Below are positions 12,758-55,560 of a stretch of DNA of 64,000 nt, piece by piece; positions within the stretch are counted from its first letter, which is position 1, and every line of letters begins with the position of its first letter. The translations under genes and the position numbers were made by a program. Origin of the DNA: Branchiostoma floridae (lineage: Eukaryota; Chordata; Leptocardii; Amphioxiformes; Branchiostomatidae); the NCBI RefSeq assembly GCF_000003815.2, contig NC_049988.1, forward strand, positions 18,202,920-18,266,919, read 5' to 3'. The notes under the pieces are model-generated. The model saw nothing but the letters and a program-made list of their open reading frames with translations, made no database searches and was not told the origin of the DNA.

Positions 12758-15700
12758 TGCTAACACATGTACACACACAGAAAGACACACACGCACAAAC
12801 ACATACACAACTAGAAAGGTAATATTTGCAAGCAAATACAGAATGTTACCTTCACATGTTGTAGTCTAACACTGGTAACTGTTTTGTTCATTCTTATTGG
12901 AACACATTTATATATAACGTTTATTGATTGTTTCAACAACCTCTAGATACATTGCAGCGCCCTAAGGCGCTGAATTGCGTATTTAGGCATTTCTAAATGT
13001 AGTGAACCGAGCCCCTCTAGATCTGACATTGCTACATTATGTAACCGAACACCACATGGTGCCTGCTACTTTACCGGTTACCATGGTGACAGCCGTCTGG
13101 TCCAGGTCGTTGACCTTATTTGCGCGGAGAGGAAGAAACAAAGCAAAAACAGACATGTTCCCTTCTATGAAGGTAACATAATTAACACACACAGTTACAC
13201 ACGTACGCGCACAAACCTACAGAAAACACACGTACACACACACAAATTTATACGTGATTTCATTGTTTTCAGATTGGTACAGAAATCGGAGACGTACAAA
13301 GTCTGGCAGCACGAGTACAGCATACTCCAGGCCCACGCAGACGACATCGCCGGCAAAGTCTCGTCCCCGGCCGTTCTTGTGGATCTCGGCAGCGGAGGGT
13401 CCTCCAAAACCCGCCTGGTTATCGAGGCTATGCTGAAGCGGCACGGGAGCCCCACGTTTGTACCCGTGGACATGGCGAAGGGTAATAGTTTTAGCTTGTA
13501 ATGTGCCCACTTCTTCAGTCGCAGAGCACTGACAGTGCATGGCCATGATCACATCCGCCAAAAACGTGATTTCGGTGCCGTTAGTCAGTGTGTACATCTA
13601 TGACTGTATAGTTGTAGAGTTTGAGGATCGAAAATACATGGTGAATGTTTTTTCATTGTGTTAGAACAAAGCTTAACTTTGCAATCATTTTACCAACACA
13701 GATGTACACACAAAAGCAAAACCCAAGAAGCTGTGAATAGAGCTTTAGGATATGTGGTATGTGGTATATTTTTAGGTTTCGGCAAAACAAATCTCAAGTT
13801 CGATTATGAACCCCCTGGCGTCTTTCTATGGTACTGCTGTGGAACTTCTTGTTTTCATATATCGTGTTCTGGACATGGTATTGGCATGGCTTTTCGGTAA
13901 CAGATAGCTATCTTGTTTATCAACGTAGAGTTTATCGAGGCGTGCGGGCGGCAGCTGGAGACAGACTACCCGGGCCTGACTGTGGAGCCCTTCGGCGGGT
14001 TGTACATGGACGGGGTGCGGCATGTCGCCGCCAGGAAGGAGCCTAAGTTGCTGCTTTGGTTCGGAAACAGCTTCAGTAACATCTCCATCCATGGCCAGGT
14101 GCAGATGCTACAGGAGATCCGGGCTCAGCTCAATGGTATGTATTCAAGAGCGTTCTAGTGTTCAGATGGATGTCACTAGCCTCTACCAGGCTCCCCAGGT
14201 CGCTGGAAAGATAGTAGAAATTGTCCAAATAGACAGAAAACACACCAGAGGAGTTGGTTGACCGAGGAGTTCAGTTTGCGACCTGAGCGACCTGGGTAGC
14301 CTGGTAGAGGCTAGGATGTCACCGTCGGTATTAAATTTGTCACGAACACGTATCAAGTTACAAGTGTGTGAACTTGTAAATGCTGCACGTCAAACCTTGT
14401 GGAAGACGAAACACATTTCATCATTTTTATCTTCATAGGCTAGATATGAAACATGTTGCTTTTTTGCTCTGCACCGTCCTCTTCTTCATCTCCAATCAAA
14501 TATTAAAGATTTCCTCGGGCCCAGCTCCAGGTATTCAAACTAGCTGACATTGTGCCTAACTTTGGGTTGAAAGGTCCAAACACTGAGGAAGTTTTCTTTC
14601 CTTTTACTGTAGAGCAGGACAGGTTGGTTCTCGGGGTGGACATGAACACTGACCGAGAGGCCTTGTCTCAGGCGTACGGGGAACAGTGGACACCGATATG
14701 GCGGGACAACCTCATCTCACGCTTCAATAAGGTAACAGTGATCTTGATGAACCCTTGTCTTGTTGATCCCGTATACGGGCGGTACATATATGATGCCTGT
14801 ATGATGGCCCAGCATCTTTATATGGGTTTGGGACATTTCTCACTTAAAAGCGGCATACCGCAACAAATTGCATGCTTTGCCATTGGGGAAGCAAATCTGC
14901 AGCAGCAGCACAGAATAGGTCATGTTTTGCCGAATATTTAAAAATTCTTATGAGGACAAGGGCTTTAAATGTGCATATCAGGTGAGCACAACAGTGGGGA
15001 TTTGAACTAAGGGCCTCTTGTCGATGTAGGTTAGACATCCAGGTAATATACGCCAAAAAGTAGTTACTCAAGCAATTGGACATGGTTTTACAAAACAATA
15101 TCCAGTCGCATGACTGAGTACTTTTTGTGTCCATCCATTCTAGTAGCATGGATTCACGCGGTGAGATATAACAACGAGAATTTGAACTCACGTCCTCTTG
15201 TTGGTCTTGGTCAAGAGAGAGGGCCATTAACCACTAAACTACGTACGCCACTTTGTCTTTTATTTGGTGGTTAATTCTACGGATAAAATTTATTATATTT
15301 ACACCTTCCGATGCTTCTTCTTATCCCAGGACTTTGACGGAAACATGGACGCTGAGAAGTTTGAGTACAGGTGCGAATTTGTGGAGAACCCTCCGAGCGG
15401 AGACACTCCGAGCTACATTGTGAAATCTCTGACCAGTTTGGGCAAACAGCGGGTGCGATTTGGTAAGTTTTTTGTAGATCTCTGTACAGGGATTGTCTTG
15501 TTCCTAAGAACAACAAGCGGTCACAAAAGTTGCTTTGTAGCATTTCCAATACGTTTAAAAATATGTACTAGTTTTATTATGACTAATCATCAAAGCTTTA
15601 CAATTATCAAATCTAGAATCTGATTCTAGAAACAGTATTGTTTAGACCTGTCGTGTATCTGTCTGCCTTACAAAGAACACTAAATCATAGTTTGCTTCAC

Positions 15701-20867: not shown

Positions 20868-23800
20868 TTAATAGCGTGGCCTGTAAAACTCGAAGGTTGG
20901 TGCGGCATTTGGCCCAATCTCAGGATCCCCATCCGGGTCTACTGGCGTCCGCACAAGCTTTTTTCCCCAGGCTGTTAATGAAGACATCATGCCCATGCAG
21001 TCCTTCATCTTGTACGGGTTTCCGTTAAACGCCTCGTGGATACACTTCAGCAGGCCTGTGTAGATCTTGTTAAAGTTGTCAGAATATTTGCGAACCTGCG
21101 ATGCTAGCGGGTATCTCTCGGAGTGCGGGTTAGAAATGGTCGGCCAGACACCGACATCAAAGAAAGGCACAAGTCGGCCAGCGAAGCTAAAAGTCTTGGT
21201 GCAGTTCATGTCATCATCACATGGGAAAAAGTTGTCAAAGCACTGTCCCAGTGATGCGTCTTCTTTGTCTGTTTCTATCAGCCTCCGTCCGTGCACCACC
21301 TCGGCAAACTTGAAGTAGTGTGACAGCTCGTCCTTCTCGTCAAAAGGGTCGCAAGGGTCGCTCCCTTCGCCCTCAGTGGCGATGTCCACTATGGCAGCTA
21401 CTGCAGTGGGAAGATTATACACTGCATATGGGGAGCTGTCCCTCTTGCCAAACCAATGGTCACTGGTTATCTGCTTCGTGTTTTCACCTGTAAACAGACT
21501 CCGTGCTTGTATCTGTAGTACGACCATCGGGCAGAGAATCTGATGGATGTAGATGGCACCGATGGTAGCTGGCCTTGTCGTGGTCTCTCTACACCGTCGA
21601 TCGATTTCCGCCCAAGTGTCCTCATTGCCCGTAGGTGCATCATCACTGCACTTTATTAGACGTTTTCTATGAGTGCGAAGATACTGGAACACATCAGAAT
21701 TCACCATCTTATAATTACAGTCTGGTCTCTCTATCCCCTGAAAAACGGTTCGGATCTGGTTCAAAGAGCACCTCGCGAGCTTTACCACAAGACCAGGGTT
21801 GGCGCCCCCAGGAAGGGCATTTGGATAGGACGGTACTATAGACGGATGGTTTAAGTTTGGCGCCCCGCCAATCGCGTTCAGGAGGTTGGAAACCAGAGCC
21901 ATGTGTTTCATCTCATCGACAACTATACTTCTGATCAGGGAGGCCACCTCTCTGTTTTCGCCATCTTTTATCGAGAACAGCGCACTCAGATAGGGAGGGA
22001 TTGTCGCCAGTTCCAGCTGAAGAGCTACCTGGAGAGACCGCTTTAGTTCCTCTAAGGTGTGGGTGTTCGTACCTATTGGTGGGAGGTTCGTGGATGTGTC
22101 CAGATCGTCTAACCATGACAAAATCATTCGCCGCTTTGTTGGAGAGAGGTCTCTGGTTACAGGCATGTAATTCGGGTTTGTTTCGGGGAGAGTAAAGACG
22201 TGTTTGAGTATTTTCAGTTTTTTAGTGACATCCTCGTAGCTTGCAAGGTTGATAATCGGCTTCATGACGGGGTACAGGTTGGCATACTGTTGGAATATCG
22301 GGTAGACATGTTCGTACCAGGTCACTTTACCGGGAGTGAAGGTGTACTCTGAATACACCTGAGCTGAAATCATTAGGTCCCGAACTGTGAATTCATGATC
22401 ATCTTCCTTTTGGGCAATTATGTCGTATTTGTAGACCTGGCCATCTAGCTGCTCTTCTCTCCTTGGTTCCCCTGGATTGCTGGACCGGAAGGTTATCGCA
22501 GAAATGCCGTTGCTGCCGGATGGTTTGGTACTGACGATATCTATTGCTGGTTTCGGGTCATCTGGTGGCCAGATTAGCTTGGGTTTGACGAGAACTCCTT
22601 TGGCAGACCTTCCAAACTGGAAAGCGCGAAATTTCACATTCCATTCATTATTGGGCTCTTTCCGTGCAACACGATTGCCCACGGCCTCAACGAACAGGCC
22701 ATCTGGTCTTTCCTCCAATACTGGCTCGCAGTGCGTTGGGGACATTTGTTGAATAACCGCCAATGGAGTGTTCCCAATTGTTTCAATTGCTTTGTGTTTT
22801 ACTGAAAGTGCAATTATGCCTGCAGTCCTCAGAAACCAGTGGTTTCCGCACAAGTTTCCGCTGAGTTTGATTTCTCCCAGGTTGTATGCCTCGTTGCTGA
22901 GAGGTTCACACCTTCGCTTCGTGCCGTTGTACTGAAGAAGATACAGGGGTCCGCCTGAGGGTTCGACAGGGTTACCTTCGATGTCGAACTTCATACTATT
23001 GGCAAAGTCCAACACTACATGCTTCGTGTGGACGTCAACATAGAACGGTACATGACCACCGTCATCTCTCCACAGCATCCTCTTATACAGGCCATAAGGA
23101 AGAGGGTGCTTCGACACTGCTGCAAATATGGTCCCAACCACACGGCCATACAGGTAGTCTTCAGACTTCGGTGCCACTCTCATGTTGTAGACGTTGAGTT
23201 TGACGTGCAACTGAAATCCAGGCATGCAGCGGAGAGCCATGACCTGCTGTATGAAGTCAGACTGTCTTGCAAGAGGACCTTCGATCCACTTCACGTTTTG
23301 TAGCGTCGACACCCAGACCGCAATAAGACGTGTAAACGCAACTATTGAATTGCAGCCCAATCCCGTACAGGCGTCGTGCATGTGGTTGAATGACCGCGGG
23401 ACGAAATCCCCCTTCAGGAAGCCATCCACACCGACCACGAGGCCCCAGAGTTGAGATTGGTCTTGGTTGTCTGTATCCAGGTCCACCAGTTTGCCTGCAC
23501 TTGTGCTGTCCGAGCCTAGATAATCAAAGAAGCCACATCTGTGCATTTTTGTGGGTAAGGCGCAAATCAGATGTGATGCAAGGCCACACCAATATAAGTA
23601 TTCAACATAGAAATGTATGTCGAAAGACACTGAGTTGGAAATGAACTTGCATGCATGCCGTCCGGTTCGGTATTTATGCCTGCAATGACATCTTGTCCCT
23701 TTGGAACCTTAAGGACATCTGTGCACAACATTGAACTATATCTGATCTGTCGTCTTCTTTGCTGAGTCTATACGTACATCCTGAAATTCCGACCATAGAG

Positions 23801-26800
23801 ATGAATCCTAACGATGGCTCAGGGTGTATTGTTGTTAAAGCTGGACCAAGACAAGAGAGTAGCTTAGTAAAGATAGAATATTACCTATGATCGTTTGGCC
23901 AACGATAGGGTCGTTCACGACGCCGCAGTGTCCGTCCGCAAGGCAGACTTCTGTGACTCTACAGTCAACCAACCGGAAATCAGCGCTGCCTTTCGGGTTC
24001 CAGCCGGGCTCTCTGAAGGGATCAAATGTGCTGCTGTTGAAATTCCCCCTTAGGTTGTTGAAGGTTGAGACGTCGGCAAGAAATCTCCCAGCGAAATTCA
24101 ATCGAAGTTTAGCTGCAGGAATGACAACACATTTATAGGCAGGGTCATCAACATTCTTCATCATGATTCAAGTGTTGGCTCCATAACCACATTTCCAAAC
24201 CGAGACCCCGCCGGGCTGTTTGTAGAAGAAATATACACAAACTATGCTCATGATTCTTACGTTTATGTGTTTTGTTGTCATTAATTGCATACTCGTTGTT
24301 CCCTTTCATGAATGAAAAGTATGACATAAAAGGCACCAAACTACACAAGACGTAAAGATAATAGTTGTGGGCATTATTTGTGTACATTTTTACATAGACA
24401 TTTTTATTTTTCGTTTCCAGAAACAGCCCGGCCGAGCCTCGGTTTGGAACTGTGACGTTGGGCTAATAGGGAGAAGATTTTGCCAGGGGAGTTTTGCTAC
24501 GAAAAGGTTTGAATTGCCGCGCAGTCGAAGGGAGGATATTAACCTAAGGCCTACGTCACATTTCCAAACCGGGGCCCCTTTCGGGAACGGAAATTATCAT
24601 ATAAAAGACATCCAACTACACAAGACGTAAAGAGAATAGTTGTGGGCATCATTTGTGTATATTTTGGGGTATACATTTTTATTTATCGTTTCCAGAAACA
24701 GCCCGGCCGGGCCCCGGTTTGGAAATGTGACGCTGGTCTAAGCGCGCGTGGACTGAATCTCCAGGCCAATTATTTGTCGAATTCCCAATTCATTGGGTTT
24801 TACCCCATTTGCCATCGCGATTGCTATTTTGTCATTGGGTGGGCCGACTACTCTCTTCGCAGCCCGGGGCTGAATTGTGAGGATTAACAATAGGCAGGGC
24901 TAAGTACTATTGAATAATTGAGAAAACTGACAGTCTTTATTTAACTGTAACAAGCTTCAAACGTTTTATACAAAAAATAATGACTCCACTAACATGCATG
25001 TTTGACCTCACACTTTGATAGAGTACAATGAATTCTACCAATAAACGCAATAACGTACCAGAGGGGCTGATGTGTCCAGTTTCAACTTCGTCCTCGCCAC
25101 GTTCACAGAAGTCGTCAATGGAGCCTGAAGTTAAGCATTTGATAGACATTTCAGGAATGTGATGCGTGATCATTTCTATTTATTGGTTGAAATTGAAGGT
25201 GATTATCACCCTTTCAAAATAACAAAATGTGAAATTTTGGTAAGTGTGGTGGGTTCTTTAACGTGTTCGAGGTGTGGCTCTCCTTAAACATAAGGTGCCC
25301 ATCGCTTTATGCCCTAATGAGAACCTAGCCGAAGCTAGGTTCTCATTTTCAATTGAATGGAGCCAAGGAATTGGTGTTAACATGTTACCAATGCACAAAA
25401 TCAGGTAGGCATTATACTCCAAAACCTTTATGTGCAGATTCCGTGTTGAATACATGATTGTGAACTGTGTCTACGCTACGCACTACTGGACAAAAACCCG
25501 CTTGGGCATACCATCTAGGAACAAACTCAGAGGCCGAACAGTAGATCGGTCCTCCAAACTCCTGCCACCACCAGTAAGATGATAATCAATGTTGCACCCG
25601 CATGAATGGCCTAGGTGGATGTTACTACTTTTATCTCACCTGTATTGTCATCTTCTACTTGCTCACTTTGGGGGTTCTGGCTGTATAGGCTGTGCTCATG
25701 GCTGTGATGGTCTGTAGCCGAATCTGAAATAAGATTAAACCAAGAATGAAACGTCCAGCTCATCAACTAGAGTTCCGCGATCTCATAACCTTCGCCAAAT
25801 GATGCCAACCTTTAAAACTGACGTATACAAAATGTTTCTGGTTAACTATGTACAAACGACGCCCTTATTAATGGTAAAGAATCGCTGGAGGATGAAAGAT
25901 CTCACTTGAAAAATTATCTCTACTTTTAATTCTCAAAAGGCTCTAAAATTATGACTTTTCTTCTCGTCGTGTATACACACTGATTATACATGACTTTCCA
26001 TGAAACAAAATCCTATGAACAGTATGCTTGCGTGTTATAATTATGTACACAGTGCTGAACAGGTATTAAAACCATTCCTAAATCACAACGTTGTTAACTC
26101 CAATAAGTCATATCGAAGAAGTTGTCTATCCAGTTCTATCGTTGAGTCGATGCCTCCTACGCAGAGAAACACCTTTAACCTTTGTCTCAACTGTACACTG
26201 CTCCACACATTACCAAACAAGTGCGCTCAAATGTGCCCATAGATACATGCAATAAATGCCCTGGGCGCACCAGAACTGGTTAGACATGATTTTCTGTCCT
26301 CTGGCCATGGGTCATGGAGAGGTTACAGGCATTAACAGGGGAGGGCTGTATACGGAGGGAAAAGCTAGTAGTAGTATACCAAAAAACTTGAAAGACTAAA
26401 CAGTGACCAATCTTTTCTTTTTTTTTCACATGTATTTCATTAACTTTCCCTTGAATGCCTATCATCGACGATCTCACAAGCTAAAACGTACAGGCCAGGA
26501 TAGTAAAGTTCTAGGTAGTTCTGAATAATCCAAGTAACGTTACGAATATAGTAAGAACGTGCTATCTTACTACATTATACAGTACATACAACTACAAAGT
26601 CTGATACGCCACAATTCATGCGAGCAAGTCATGCCCCCTGTCCTAAATTGAGAATATCTTAGGAACTCTCGAACTGTATGTGACACCAGGATGTGCCAAA
26701 TAACAGTGAACCGTACAGTAACAAACTATTTAAAGTTTTCAGAAAGGGAGGGGGTCTGCACGATGTTTTGAAATAAACCACCAGAACCTGAATGTCTCAC

Positions 26801-27047
26801 CTTCCTCAACGTAACAACAAGAAGTACCACAGGCATAGCAAACACAAACTTAACAACGACCTAAGTTGGAACTATTCCGATGGGTGAACGCTGAAAAATG
26901 ACAGAACAAAGATAACGAATTCTTACATTGTAATAAGGAGTCCTTTTCCCCGATGTCGCCGCCCAGTGTGGCTGAAGACGACGAGCATGCTTCAACACGA
27001 GTCACAGGAATCATCAGGAAAAGCGCCAAAACGCGCCAGTAGTCCAT
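20868..27047 (-). CDS. secreted VioB/RebD-like imine-dimer synthase family protein with ferritin-like domain
   Basis: Exons on the minus strand, in transcript order, are 27047-26927, 25723-25640, 25124-25059, 24112-23885 and 23515-20868. All junctions are phase 1 and join to 3147 nt (1048 aa); VioB and RebD are about 1000 aa. Residues 1-20 are a signal peptide (hydrophobic LALFLMIP, cut after VEA). Residues 41-90 form a polar linker with HHSHEH. From about 91, KLRLNFAGRF matches the family's conserved N-terminal LHFAG strand. Near 570-640 the WYEHVYPIF and YMPVTRDLSPTKRRMI motifs match VioB. The ferritin-like domain (about 650-1000) shows Glu668 (LELATIPPY), Glu701-x-x-His704 (DEMKHM), a TEGEG loop near 880, and Glu896-x-x-His899 (DELSHYF), the expected metal-ligand pattern. 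Bacterial members couple two oxidised tryptophan-derived imines. Substrate here is unknown, and secretion argues for a different role. The last exon is 2.65 kb without an intron. The gene is convergent with the EgtD-like gene, 4.9 kb away. Confidence 0.85.
24188..24741. mobile_element. two adjacent MITEs of the GTCACATTTCC family in intron 3 of the VioB-like gene
   Basis: Copies at about 24188-24455 and 24545-24741 share inverted ends, CACATTTCCAAACCG on one side and CGGTTTGGAA.TGTGAC on the other, enclosing an AT-rich core. The core includes CACAAGACGTAAAGA and GTTTCCAGAAACAGCCCGGC. Related copies lie at 28243-28446 and 50027-50195. Confidence 0.75.
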
Positions 27048-37497: not shown

Positions 37498-38153
37498 NNN
37501 NNNNNNNNNNNNNNNNNNNNNNNNNNNNNNNNNNNNNNNNNNNNNNNNNNNNNNNNNNNNNNNNNNNNNNNNNNNNNNNNNNNNNNNNNNNNNNNNNNNN
37601 NNNNNNNNNNNNNNNNNNNNNNNNNNNNNNNNNNNNNNNNNNNNNNNNNNNNNNNNNNNNNNNNNNNNNNNNNNNNNNNNNNNNNNNNNNNNNNNNNNNN
37701 NNNNNNNNNNNNNNNNNNNNNNNNNNNNNNNNNNNNNNNNNNNNNNNNNNNNNNNNNNNNNNNNNNNNNNNNNNNNNNNNNNNNNNNNNNNNNNNNNNNN
37801 NNNNNNNNNNNNNNNNNNNNNNNNNNNNNNNNNNNNNNNNNNNNNNNNNNNNNNNNNNNNNNNNNNNNNNNNNNNNNNNNNNNNNNNNNNNNNNNNNNNN
37901 NNNNNNNNNNNNNNNNNNNNNNNNNNNNNNNNNNNNNNNNNNNNNNNNNNNNNNNNNNNNNNNNNNNNNNNNNNNNNNNNNNNNNNNNNNNNNNNNNNNN
38001 NNNNNNNNNNNNNNNNNNNNNNNNNNNNNNNNNNNNNNNNNNNNNNNNNNNNNNNNNNNNNNNNNNNNNNNNNNNNNNNNNNNNNNNNNNNNNNNNNNNN
38101 NNNNNNNNNNNNNNNNNNNNNNNNNNNNNNNNNNNNNNNNNNNNNNNNNNNNN
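37498..38153. other. assembly gap
   Basis: 656 unknown bases. The sequence resumes directly inside a minisatellite, so the gap is probably unresolved repeat and its stated size may be nominal. Confidence 0.95.
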
Positions 38154-39461
38154 CCCTGAATGACACAACAAGACTATTCCCTGTTCCTGGTGCTGAATGA
38201 CACACCAACAAGACCAGTGCCCCTGTCCCTGGTGCTGAATGACACACCAACAAGACTGGTGCCCCTGTCCCTGAATGACACACCAACAAGACTATTCCCT
38301 GTTCCTGGTGCTGAATGACACACCAACAAGACCAGTGCCCCTGTCCCTGGTGCTGAATGACACACCAACACGACGTGCCCTGTCCCTGGTGCTGAATGAC
38401 ACACCAACAAGACTGGTGCCCCTGTCCCTGTCCCTGAATGACACACCAACAAGACTATTCCCTGTTCCTGGTGCTGAATGACACACCAACAAGACCAGTG
38501 CCCCTGTCCCTGGTGCTGAATGACACACCAACACGACTGGTGCCCTGTCCCTGGTGCTGAATGACACACCAACAAGACTGGTGCCCCTGTCCCTGGTGCC
38601 AAATGACACACGAACAAGACTGCTGTCCCTGTCCCTGGTGCTGAATGCCACACCAACAAAACTGGTGCCCCTGTCCCTGATGCTGAATGACACTCCAACA
38701 AGACTGGTGCCCCTGATGCTGAATGACACTCCAACAAGATTGGTGCCCCTGTCCCTGAATGACACACCAACAAGACTGGTGCTGCTCCTGTCACTGGTGC
38801 TGAATGACAACCAACAAGACTGGTGCCCCTGTCCCTGGTGCTGAATGACACACCAACAAGACTGGTGCCCCTGTCCCTGAATGACACACCAACAAGACTG
38901 GTCACCTTGTCCCTAAATGACAGACCGACAAGACTGTACCCCTATCCCTGTATGACACACCAACAAGACTGGTGTCCTGTCCCTGGTGCTGAATGACACA
39001 CCAACAAGACTGGTGCCCCTGTCCCTGGTGCCGAATGACACACCAACAAGACTGGTGCCCCTGTCCCTGGTGCTGAATATCACACCAACAAGACTGGTGC
39101 CCCTGTCCCTAAATGACACACCGACAAGACTGGTGCCCCTGTCCCTGAATGACACTCCAACAAGACTGGTGCCCCTGTCCCTGAATGACACACCAACAAG
39201 ACTGGTGCCCCTGTCCCTGAATGACACACCGACAAGACTGGTGCCCCTGTCCCTGAATGACACTCCAACAAGACCAGTGCCCCTGTCCCTGAATGACACA
39301 TCAACAGGACTGTTGCCCCTGTCCCTGGTGCTGAATGACACACCAACAAGACTGGTGCCCCTGTCCCTGGTGCTGAATGACACACCAACAAGACTGGTGC
39401 CCCTGTCCCTGGTGCTGAATGACACACCAACAAGACTAGTGCCCCTGTCCCTTGTTTTAAA
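38154..39461. repeat. 36/42-bp minisatellite, open on both strands
   Basis: More than thirty tandem copies of a unit around CTGAATGACACACCAACAAG and ACTGGTGCCCCTGTCC, alternating between a 36-bp form and a 42-bp form with an extra CTGGTG. All lengths are multiples of three, so frames stay open for long runs. One plus-strand frame reads LNDTPTRLVPLS(LV), and one minus-strand frame reads RDRGTSLVGVSFSTRD. No start context, splice site or flanking domain supports a real protein, so I call it non-coding. Confidence 0.9.
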
Positions 39462-44071: not shown

Positions 44072-47000
44072 ATGTCTGTTCACTTTAAGTTGAGGAGTCG
44101 TCTGTGTTCTATCATCATGCCGAGGTCTACATATTACCAGTTCCTCTTCACTGCCACCCTGGGCTGCTTTCTGTTTGTGGGACTGGTGGAAGGTTGGTAC
44201 TAGTACATTTGCCTCCCAAAGAAATAAGTACCGGTACTAGTGGTATATGGCCCCCTTCAGTCATAGATAATGGCCATGGTAACATCCTAATTGATATCAG
44301 CCCTACAGCTTTGGCTATATGGCCAAACAGTACTAGTCCTATATGAATGACAGTCTCTGCCACATAGGGTACATGTGTATGCTGACTCAGGTCTGTTGAA
44401 GAGTTCTTTTTGCAGGATCCGCTTTTCTTCTGCCATGTGCATCAGCCTGGCTTCTTCTGATTTTAGCTGACAGAACAGTGTATGATATGTAGTTTGATTT
44501 GTGTGGTTATAAATTAATTATGTACATGTTTGTGTTTTTTCCTTGTTCAGGTATAGGAATCAGCGCCATTCGTGACCTGACTATGGAGCCTGGACAGAAT
44601 GAAACCATAGTCATCCAATTAAGGTACGGGAGTGGAATCATGTTATTGATTTCATCATATAGGCCAGGAAGGAGTGGGCAATTTTTGTTGTATTGTAATT
44701 ACATAATGGTACCATATTGACTACATGCCAAAAAGCAGTTACTCAAGCAACTGGATATGATTTTTGCAATGGTCAGATTTTTCAGATAGCATCCATTATC
44801 TTTTTGTTAATGACACTGAAAAGATCTGGTAGAATCAAGTTTTATACCCTAACTATGATTTGATATGCAACAGAGACAAAGAGCTTCAGTAGCACTGACC
44901 TAGGATAGTGGATGCTATTCTGACTGTTTCCAGAATCATATCCAGTTTCTTGAGTAACTGCTTTTTGACGTATATATAAGTGATAACCTTGATGTTTAAC
45001 CTTCATTGACACTTGATATCTTATTCTCATTACAGAATATCTGAGTGTAGATTCTTACCTGTAATTGATATCATCATTTCATGGTGTGTTTGTTCATTCT
45101 TTCAGTGGTCGGTTGAAGAAGTCAACCACCCTTTTCGCTGAGTCCTCCAACAAAGATATTTGTTCTGTGGGAAACGTAAGTACTTGTATAGAACAAGTTC
45201 ATTGCCATAAAAAGTGTTTTTAATTGTGATCAATAATATTAGTATCATTTGATAACAATGTTTAATGATAACGATAATAGTAGTAAGTTTATTGTTACGT
45301 TTTTGCCTGAGGATTAATTACAATAGCATGGGTACCATCCTATTTCTATCAGGGCTCCTAACACTTGCTAGTCGCTACCCTAAAAAAAAATGTAATATTT
45401 TTTTATGGCACCAAGTGTAAGGAGCCCTGGTACTAGAAATAGGATCCGATGGTACCCAGGCTATGATTACAAATGTCAGGAAAAAAACACATTGAAGAAC
45501 AGACAATAATAGTAAGTGCGCAACAGTGAATATAACTGAAAGTGTCCTACACTTAGTGACATACAGTATGTTTGACTGTCGCTTTCAGGTTTCCATGATA
45601 ATAATTGTACGTTCATTGTTGATTTTTGCCAGAGGACTAATTACAGATTAGAAAAAGACAAAGAACAACAAATTATAGTAGTAAATAAATATAATAGTAA
45701 GTGAGCATCTATGTATATTACTGAAAGTGTACATGTTTGTGTCTGTCGCTTTCAGGTTTCCATTCCCGCGGGATGGAACTCTTCTGTACATACCCGCATC
45801 ATCGCTCTCAAGGTCGGACAGACTGACGTGACCTTCAACAGCACGTCTTCAGAACTCACGGGGTATGTTCTTTTCTGTCTTAATCTTAAAGGAAACTGCT
45901 GGCTCAGACATGAACTTTGAGGATAGAAATACTTTTTATCTGTTTCTTTGAAGTATTCATACCTGTCCCACAGGTATGGAACATGGAACAACAAAGTCGT
46001 ATCATTATACCCACTGTTGAAATTTTAACCAAGCACACTTCTGCTCTTATCACAAAATGTGTTCATTAAGGGACAAGGCTCCATATCATGTGATTTTTAT
46101 TTTTATGTCCTTGTACTTTGCAGATTAGACAGTGTGTTTACCAAGGTGTCTGTGGTCCACAGTCTGCCCCTGCACATAGTGAATGAACTGAATGCTGCGA
46201 TCAGCATCATTCATACTGTACATGTCTTTCTCTCTATTGCAGACTGGACAGTGTGTTCACCAAGGTATCTGTGGTGCGCAGTCTGCCCCTGCACATAGTG
46301 AATGCTGTGATCGTCATCATACATATTGTTCATGTCTTTCTCTATTGCAGACTGGATAGTGTGTTCACCAAGGTATCTGTGGTGCGCAGTCTGCCCCTGC
46401 ACATAGTGAATGCTGTGATCGTCATCATACATATTGTTCATGTCTTTCTCTATTGCAGACTGGATAGTGTGTTCACCAAGGTATCAGTGGTGCGTAGTCT
46501 GCCCCTGCACATAGTGAACGCTGTGATCGGCTGGATCTACTTCGTGGCCTGGTCTGTGTCCTTCTATCCACAGGTGTTCGAGAACTGGAGAAGGAAAAGG
46601 TGAGAGGGACGGGGGTGTAGCTTGGTTGTCTTATCACAGATTGTGGGACCGCGTAGTACAGTGGCAGCGTGTTTGCCTCGTGACCAAAAGGTCACGGGTT
46701 TGAATCCAGCTGCCGTGTTATCGATGTTGTGCCCTTGGGAAAGGCACTTAACACAACTTTCCTCACTTTACTCAGGCGAAAATGAGTACCTAGCTTAGGC
46801 TAGGGCAGTCCCTCGGATAGGACGTTAAATGGAGGTCCCGTGTTCGGGGAGAGCCATACCTCAGGCACGTAAAAGAACCCTCCACATGTGCGATGGTGCA
46901 ATGTGAGGGGATCAAACCATTCCAGCCAAAATGGGGTAGGGAATTTCCCGAGCAGCCTCGTTACCCCTGCTTAGCCTATTGAGTCAGTGAAGTCAAGCTT

Positions 47001-53938: not shown

Positions 53939-55528
53939 CTAACGAATGGTTGGTCCGAATTGATGTCGTTCCCCGTAGAAGTAGTTGAAGAATAATCTGA
54001 AGACAAAGGAGCAGAAGTCAAAGGCTTTACGGAGAAAGCTTCCAGCATTGCCTTCTTCTCTGCGATCATCCGCGTCTTCTTCCCTGCGATCATCTGCGTT
54101 TTCTTCCCTGCGATCATCCGCGTCTTCTTCCCTGCGATCATCCGCGTCTTCCCAGTGATCATCCGCGTCTTCTTCCCTGCGATCATCCGCGTCTTCTTCC
54201 CTGCGATCATCCGCGTTTTCTTCCCTGCGATCATCTGCGTTTTCTTCCCTGCGATCATCTGCGTTTTCTTCCCTGCGATCATCCGCGTCTTCCCAGCGAT
54301 CATCCGCGTCTTCTTCCCAGCGATCATCCGCGTCTTCCCAGCGATCATCCGCGTCTTCTTCCCTGCGATCATCCGCATTTTCTTCCCTGCGATCATCTGC
54401 GTTTTCTTCCCTGCGATCATCCGCGTCTTCTTCCCTGCGATCATCCGCGTCTTCCCAGTGATCATCCGCGTTTTGTTCCCTGCGATCATCCGCGTCTTCT
54501 TCCCAGCGATCATCCGCGTCTTCTTCCCTGCGATCATCCGCGTTTTCTTCCCTGCGATCATCCGCGTCTTCCCAGTGATCATCCGCGTTTTGTTCCCTGC
54601 GATCATCCGCGTCTTCTTCCCAGCGATCATCCGTGTCTTCTTCCCTGCGATCATCCGCGTTTTCTTCCCTGCGATCATCTGCGTTTTCTTCCCTGCGATC
54701 ATCCGCGTCTTCCCAGCGATCATCCGCGTCTTCTTCCCAGCGATCATCCGCGTCTTCCCAGCGATCATCCGCGTCTTCTTCCCTGCGATCATCCGCGTTT
54801 TCTTCCCTGCGATCATTCGCGTCTTCTTCCCTGCGATCATCCGCGTCTTCCCAGCGATCATCCGCGTCTTCTTCCCTGCGATCATCCGCGCCTTCTGGAA
54901 AGCGTTCCCCGTAGATGTAGAAGTTGAAGTAGAACATGAAAATGGAGAAGAAGAACTCAAAGGCTTCTCTGAGAGAGCCTTCTCCATCATCTTCCTCTTC
55001 ACTGCGATCATCCGCGTCTTCTTCCCTGCGATCATCCGCGTCTTCTTCCCTGCGATCATCCGCGTCTTCTTCCCTACGATCAGCCGCGCCTTCTGCAACA
55101 ACTCTTCCAAATGGAATGCCTTCCCTGATACTAGCAACCCTTCCTAATGGAAAATGCTCCCCGTAGAAGAAATAGTTGAAGTAGACTGTGGAGACACCTT
55201 CCCTGAGACAGCTTCTAAAATCGCCTTCTCCAACATCATCGTCTTCTCCAACATCAGCGCCCGCTCCAACATCATCTGCCTCCCCAACATCATCGCCTTC
55301 TCCATCATCTTCCTCTTCCCTCCGATCATCCTCATCTGCTCCAGCATCATCGGTCCAACCCTCTATTGGTCTCCTACAGGTGGGGCAAATTGGGTTTCTT
55401 TCACACCATCTCTCGATGCACACTTTGTGATAACTGTGAGGTGTTGCATTTGGACATTGTTCCCAAATTTCGTCCCGTTCTGCTAATGCTTCCTTACAAA
55501 TATCACAATCAGGCATTTTTGTACTCAT
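53939..55528 (-). CDS. RING-H2 protein with Asp/Arg/Glu tandem repeats and three hydrophobic modules
   Basis: A single-exon frame of 529 aa. Residues 8-51 form a RING-H2 zinc-binding domain: C8-x2-C11, C25, H31-x2-H34-x2-C37, C48-x2-C51. Such domains usually recruit ubiquitin-conjugating enzymes. An acidic stretch (residues 58-103) follows. Three similar hydrophobic modules come at about 104-129, 181-212 and 496-529 (pattern S.LREAF.F...FYFN.Y.YGER.P.G). Between the second and third lie dozens of repeats of DDRREEDA (24 nt) or DDRWEDA (21 nt). The modules could be membrane-associating, and the repeats form a highly charged rod. I know no family with this layout. Lack of introns suggests a young or retroposed gene, and the repeat part varies by unit number. 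The coding call rests on the intact RING domain and the unbroken frame. Confidence 0.65.
   Translation of the reverse strand: MSTKMPDCDICKEALAERDEIWEQCPNATPHSYHKVCIERWCERNPICPTCRRPIEGWTDDAGADEDDRREEEDDGEGDDVGEADDVGAGADVGEDDDVGEGDFRSCLREGVSTVYFNYFFYGEHFPLGRVASIREGIPFGRVVAEGAADRREEDADDRREEDADDRREEDADDRSEEEDDGEGSLREAFEFFFSIFMFYFNFYIYGERFPEGADDRREEDADDRWEDADDRREEDANDRREENADDRREEDADDRWEDADDRWEEDADDRWEDADDRREENADDRREENADDRREEDTDDRWEEDADDRREQNADDHWEDADDRREENADDRREEDADDRWEEDADDRREQNADDHWEDADDRREEDADDRREENADDRREENADDRREEDADDRWEDADDRWEEDADDRWEDADDRREENADDRREENADDRREENADDRREEDADDRREEDADDHWEDADDRREEDADDRREENADDRREEDADDRREEGNAGSFLRKAFDFCSFVFRLFFNYFYGERHQFGPTIR
54060..54892. repeat. 21/24-bp minisatellite encoding the charged repeats
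   Basis: Units of GCGATCATCCGCGTCTTCTT plus CCCT (24 bp) and a 21-bp form with CTTCCCA, all multiples of three. Other frames are also open: one plus frame reads FPAIIRVF repeats, another SSSLRSSA, and another minus frame GKKTRMIA. A smaller block of the same unit is at about 55003-55090. Confidence 0.9.
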
Positions 55529-55560
55529 CCACTAAACCTCTCGAATTGTTACTTCTTTTG

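Follow-up and report, generated by a model that had tools for sequence, protein, structure and literature searches.

In this study, we report a spliced gene of the amphioxus Branchiostoma floridae, located on the minus strand of an analysed stretch of 64,000 nucleotides (the window), whose product is an animal branch of a bacterial full-length VioB-like family; VioB and StaD are its remote relatives. The gene structure, the family, the copy number, the single animal clade, the gained cysteines and the conserved ligand set are direct results of the computation. The gene is real and unusual, its family is well supported, and its chemistry and origin are proposed by reasoning from the sequence. 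The complete reading, namely a spliced secretory-pathway member of this family that multiplied in amphioxus and would act as a metal-dependent oxidase, is held with somewhat better than even confidence. Members of the superfamily are known from pathways that make bacterial pigments and antibiotics. If this reading is true, a spliced, probably secreted, multi-copy animal branch would clearly exemplify the capture of a gene and its later re-targeting, in which the 5′ exons and the cysteines that were added can still be recognised. It would also indicate a small-molecule pathway of animals that has not yet been described.

Gene structure and copies in the amphioxus genome

Once joined and translated, the five exons of the window gene give 1048 codons plus a stop without any inner stop, and all four introns are of the GT-AG type and in phase 1. 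The last exon sits in an open frame of 946 codons, a length far above chance. With the frame intact and one phase throughout, the coordinates and the five-exon model of the preliminary description stand, and the gene with its predicted spliced structure is confirmed. An acceptor at 23539 for the last exon was discarded because it breaks the frame, and that at 23516 fits. The features are as follows:

26927..27047, minus strand: exon 1, with the start codon, a signal-like peptide from aa 1 to about 20 (MDYWRVLALFLMIPVTRVEA) containing a hydrophobic 11-mer, and the donor GTAAG
26988..27047, minus strand: signal-like peptide, aa 1-20, cleavage point estimated by eye
25640..25723, minus strand: exon 2, phase 1-1, with HHSHEH at 25692-25709
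25059..25124, minus strand: exon 3, phase 1-1, acidic linker, from the gene model
23885..24112, minus strand: exon 4, aa 91-167, where the conserved N-half begins (LRLNFAGRF..), its 5′ end at most about 5 residues from the start of the bacterial homologues
20868..23515, minus strand: exon 5, aa 167-1048 and stop, with the remaining N-half, the MPVTRDLSP block and the ferritin-like half
22140..22166, minus strand: MPVTRDLSP block, aa 617-625, common to bacterial relatives
21294..22034, minus strand: PF12902 Ferritin-like domain, aa 661-907, Pfam match
22011..22013, minus strand: E668, probable metal ligand by conservation
21912..21914, minus strand: E701 (ExxH), probable metal ligand by conservation
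21903..21905, minus strand: H704 (ExxH), probable metal ligand by conservation
21366..21368, minus strand: E883 (GEG), probable metal ligand by conservation, taking the place of the E896 proposed earlier
21318..21320, minus strand: H899, probable metal ligand by conservation

Some other elements were observed in the window. Intron 3 contains, at about 24320-24720, two similar stretches in tandem that both include ACACAAGACGTAAAG and AGAAACAGCCCGGCCG and, as judged by eye, may be what remains of a mobile element. On the plus strand, there are an exon of a histidine-specific methyltransferase at 13196-13501 (Methyltransf_33, E 2.1e-12) and a PQ-loop exon at 46187-46603 with a 108-base unit present about three times. 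A stretch of N adjoins 32 tandem copies of a 42-base unit at about 37500-39452, and on the minus strand, at 53939-55531, a RING-finger-like ORF (just below the Pfam cut-off) precedes a long array of 24-base repeats that encodes DDRREE-type repeats.

The PF12902 search over the 513-Mb genome gave 17 matches at 16 places. These are spread over seven contigs; six are chromosome-size, and the window gene lies on a contig of that size. These places correspond to 10 long copies (window gene included), the damaged near-duplicate L041 and five copies with the ferritin-like half only (the short copies), and a protein search added the fragment L054 and a lone copy of exon 1 (L055) on a 9-kb contig. L041 (G000:C10:1045500-1053300) is, by piece, about 79-94% identical to the window gene and has its frames broken. 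Frame breaks were found in two of the 10 long copies (an in-frame stop in L043 and a frame change in L047), and the short copy L050 carries two stops in its upstream part. The dN/dS values ranged from 0.29 to 0.58 in seven of eight pairs, the eighth being saturated; the value for the window gene and L039 was 0.29, and, among the long pairs, the four whose value is finite gave 0.29-0.40, the L047/L048 pair comprising 374 codons, mostly of the ferritin half. The short copies (L049-L053) lie in a cluster on C16 and on C305. Four of them (L050-L053) end in RIEL, RNEL, RIEL and HIEL after a Gln run, and the open frame of L049 does not. These ends resemble ER-retrieval tails; the long-copy C-termini that were inspected have no such tails.

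It must be considered that the best matches outside this genome are bacterial, as would be seen if bacterial DNA had contaminated the assembly, although the collection behind those matches holds prokaryotes only. Given the shared introns, the distribution of the copies over chromosome-size contigs and the 47 Wnt matches that mark the same genome as metazoan, contamination was rejected and deserves practically no credence. GFP genes, sought in this genome as a mark of amphioxus, gave no match; neither did the controls, which makes this result uninformative.

Family membership and origin

In the window protein, PF12902 matched aa 661-907 with 176.8 bits, against a curated cut-off of 22.3 (E 7.7e-52), while the NCBIfam VioB model (TIGR04492, iminophenyl-pyruvate dimer synthase) matched only aa 614-685 with 21.8 bits, against an equivalog cut-off of 1250. 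Relatives were sought in sequence collections of prokaryotes, viruses and plasmids. The scan of the prokaryote collection revealed 483 related stretches, and all locus counts given here refer to the best 80 of these 483. According to their ORFs, 15 are fused full-length genes, 22 have the halves as neighbouring genes (split) and 43 have the ferritin half only (C-only). Contig ends truncate two of the fused proteins (L065 and L067), and the 13 uncut ones were used. They belong to several phyla and align with aa 94 to 1036-1047 of the window protein at 30-35% identity. Both halves in one chain with an overall identity of about 30% or higher is our own definition of this grouping, and the window protein agrees with it. 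Profile searches found no N-half, even a diverged one, beside the C-only genes in any of the 43 loci (best 80 of 483), and none of 25 viral stretches that matched a pattern was confirmed.

In one bacterial family, true VioB proteins above the VioB cut-off were found in 11 of the 61 genomes. For the StaD type, 31 of 246 genomes gave a match of any kind, always below the cut-off, and five of these proteins were used. In pairwise searches, VioB/StaD proteins matched the window protein over about 100-190 aa, VioB with 26-30% identity over about 100-150 aa. With a profile of the bacterial N-half alone, all 10 long animal copies scored 306-421 bits and nine of ten VioB/StaD-type rows 29-50 bits, the value of the tenth (L162) being unreported. 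Profile-profile comparison of six animal copies with nine fused proteins gave E 1e-155, and that of the same number of animal copies with the 10 VioB/StaD rows (hhalign) gave E 4.5e-16 over 705 columns; when the window protein and nine fused proteins were compared with VioB/StaD, E was 4.7e-43 over 860 columns. Homology over both halves, on which the assignment to the VioB/RebD/StaD superfamily had been staked beforehand, was found in this way by profile alignment and by the N-half HMM. The product had been described as a VioB/RebD-type imine-dimer synthase homologue; its place in the superfamily holds, but a strict VioB/RebD identity does not, in view of the score with the VioB model, the short pairwise matches and the long branch mentioned below. 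Family membership and a single animal clade are nearly certain.

The whole-protein tree comprised 44 rows (10 animal, 13 fused, 16 split from 14 of the 22 loci plus two plasmid loci, and 5 VioB/StaD). In it the 10 long animal copies formed one clade with support 100/100, and VioB/StaD a distant one on a long branch. The ferritin-half tree comprised 66 rows (10 long, 5 short, 13 fused, 16 split, 15 of the 43 C-only and 7 VioB/StaD), L105 having been dropped for its long branch. Here the 10 long and 5 short copies again formed one clade with support 100/100, and since the short copies were nested among the long ones, the short form has probably lost the N-half. In AU tests, a grouping of the animal copies with the fused proteins (p-AU 0.302), with 11 of the fused proteins (0.181) or with VioB/StaD (0.198) was rejected in none of the three cases, and that with the split proteins was already present in the tree, with support 68/77.

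As called, nine of the 13 fused proteins begin with MSYLxxPR; in L058, L060, L066 and L071 the mechanical start lies further upstream, with MSYL inside (VSYL in L066). By eye, an AG acceptor is found within about 5 residues of the bacterial start point in 10 of 11 animal copies (the stretch of L039 does not cover it), and the exon 4/5 junction is common in place and phase to all 11 copies (the 10 long ones and the damaged one). Exons 1-3 have no counterpart in the match of any fused bacterial protein and, given that exon 4 starts near the bacterial start (MSYLxxPRLxFAG), they look added.

Horizontal transfer or an overlooked ancient family had been proposed from the beginning. Against a comparison set of prokaryotes, viruses and plasmids, the pattern fits capture from bacteria and suggests that an animal may have captured and re-housed a bacterial oxidation enzyme. 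An old eukaryotic family, passed on by vertical descent and absent today from most lineages through loss, is a less probable origin than capture in the amphioxus lineage, yet one to be taken seriously: PF12902 genes beside lodA and lodB are mentioned for a fungus (PMC4417212), PF12902 is named in Schistosoma vesicles (PMC7563238), and the tree, as the AU values and the split grouping indicate, is compatible with several bacterial donors. The proximity of the exon 4 boundary to the bacterial start hints instead, though not decisively, at a captured reading frame.

Secretory features and candidate metal site

The window protein begins with a hydrophobic segment (VLALFLMIPVT, mean Kyte-Doolittle 2.59 over the 11-mer), which by its hydropathy may be the signal peptide claimed in the preliminary description. 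The His-rich linker pointed out there (HHSHEH) is present as well but, in the stretches from 10 paralogue loci, it is confined to the window gene and its recent duplicate L041.

There are 22 cysteines in the window protein and 4-12 in each whole fused bacterial protein. In the alignment, C147, C153, C216, C221, C429, C766, C808, C888, C925, C932, C938, C991 and C1006 are Cys in all 10 long copies. Among the 13 fused proteins, one also has Cys at C147 and three at C216, and C141 is common to bacteria (12 of 13). The other 11 fixed columns are Cys in 10/10 long copies and in 0/13 fused rows, and represent a gain with respect to the bacterial homologues; C925, C932 and C938 fall in gaps in all bacterial rows, and C429, C808 and C888 in part of them. 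This is as expected for an oxidising compartment. On these sequence features, the window protein very probably belongs to the secretory pathway.

With respect to the candidate metal site, translation placed E668, E701, H704, E896 and H899 where they had been reported. E668, E701, H704, E883 and H899 occur in every one of the 10 long copies and 13 fused proteins of the alignment; in the short copies, E701, H704, E883 and H899 are present in 5/5 and E668 in 4/4, the piece of the fifth stopping short. The equivalent residues of VioB/StaD (E612, E672, H675, E806 and H819) are invariant in the 10 rows, so that the ligand pattern of the superfamily (E, ExxH, the Glu of GEG, and SH) was recovered in full. 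The Glu/ExxH pairs proposed earlier are in consequence retained for E668, E701/H704 and H899, but not for the pairing of H899 with E896, which is Glu in nine of 10 long copies, 10 of 13 fused proteins and one of five short copies (Val in the other four); the invariant acid is E883. It is likely, from conservation, that E668, E701, H704, E883 and H899 are metal ligands. At the position that follows E668, the 13 fused proteins have His, six of the long copies Leu and the other four Trp, and the VioB rows Leu, which indicates that the site has changed in the animal copies. A single-sequence structure model of the window protein reached a pLDDT of 35 and was useless for metal-site geometry.

Proposed function and comparison with known systems

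Among the best 80 of 483 loci, with fetched flanks of up to 4 kb a side and some shorter, ebo genes flank 5 of 15 fused, 4 of 22 split and none of 43 C-only loci, that is, 9/37 two-half loci against 0/43 (Fisher p 0.0005), the nine coming from five or six genera and not being independent. Full-length VioB-like genes beside ebo were seen at L059, L060, L071, L068, L069, L070, L073, L074, L107, L164 and L165. Of 163 plasmid records, four were examined: genes named Ebo occur in two, a third has TatD and dehydroquinate-synthase genes only, and the fourth has none of these. The ebo genes are described as exporting a scytonemin precursor that undergoes oxidative dimerisation in the periplasm (PMC6282210). 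Genes for LodA-type amino-acid oxidases were seen near L165 and L132; LodA together with a halogenase-type flavoprotein is found close to the VioB-like pair of Mycetohabitans and to that of L132, and a weak flavoprotein match without a Pfam match lies near L057; among the best 80 of 483 loci, LodA is near one and a halogenase-type flavoprotein near two. By analogy, the ebo and LodA neighbourhoods, together with the fungal lodA/lodB context, suggest that the bacterial relatives work on amino-acid-derived metabolites, but LodA_C and EboE had no match in the animal genome.

The most likely role of the window protein is that of a secreted metal oxidase of ferritin fold, with small aromatic or amino-acid-derived molecules as substrates. 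The gene would derive from bacteria by capture and would later have received a 5′ signal-peptide module, and the protein would fold in the ER with disulfides before secretion. In the ferritin-like half, E668, E701, H704, E883 and H899 would form a two-metal site at which such substrates are oxidised, and perhaps coupled, with O2 or H2O2, in a pocket that the N-half may shape. Metal-dependent oxidation is fairly probable, and oxidative coupling in particular can be proposed only tentatively. More speculative still, and to be given little weight, is the proposal that the captured enzyme, with its approximately 15 paralogues (secreted long and ER-resident short), performs oxidative coupling of small aromatics in the ER lumen or outside the cell, where it would serve pigmentation, defence or cross-linking.

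A secreted ferritin-like ferroxidase, peroxidase or catalase dealing with iron or peroxide, without coupling chemistry, is rather unlikely but must be weighed. The five short copies nested in the long clade would speak for it, as the ferritin-like half seems to work alone, and VioB itself is said to show catalase activity (PMC9705886). Nevertheless, the N-half has been kept in ten long copies, with the dN/dS values of the long pairs indicated above, and some bacterial relatives lie in metabolite clusters. A true imine-dimer synthase, coupling tryptophan-derived imines like VioB and RebD, seems improbable: the superfamily match over both halves, a ligand pattern identical to that of VioB/StaD and the p-AU value of the joint clade are compatible with it, but the window protein is far below the VioB cut-off, the branch to VioB/StaD is long and the LodA partner was not found in the LodA_C search of the animal genome. 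A secreted metal oxidase is the reading that we prefer.

In the literature search, no paper was found joining amphioxus with iminophenyl-pyruvate dimer synthase, nor any bringing VioB, RebD and ferritin-like together, and among the matches listed no title or abstract dealt with a VioB-like family in an animal. The main-text terms of a compendium of animal gene transfers (PMC13342648) include no Branchiostoma, amphioxus, violacein or ferritin, and the searched terms of PMC5133447 no VioB or ferritin. Against the PDB, the VioB/StaD profile found no relative and the fused-family profile found ferritin-type chains only; a stable secreted member could therefore yield the first structure of the two-half form.

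Three groups of known proteins can be compared with the window protein. The PF12902 proteins without N-half, which include the solved relative found (PDB 3hl1), have in common with it the ferritin-like half but lack the N-half in the 43 loci; a GMC oxidoreductase lies directly upstream in the three that were checked (L085, L103 and L113). VioB (TIGR04492) and the StaD/RebD-type chromopyrrolic acid synthases share both halves (by profile) and the ligand pattern with the animal copies, from which they are separated by a long branch and by the VioB cut-off. According to the literature, VioB and RebD/StaD couple imines and contain heme (PMC9705886, PMC10851217), heme b in the case of VioB (PMC9705886). 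Closest are the fused bacterial VioB-like "ferritin-like" proteins (such as L057 of Verrucomicrobiales, L056 of Mucilaginibacter and L059 of Undibacterium), for which we found no established name. They resemble the window protein in both halves, in their end-to-end identity, in the MPVTRDLS block and in the five ligands, and differ from it in consisting of one ORF from MSYL, without a signal peptide as judged by eye, with few cysteines and with His beside E668.
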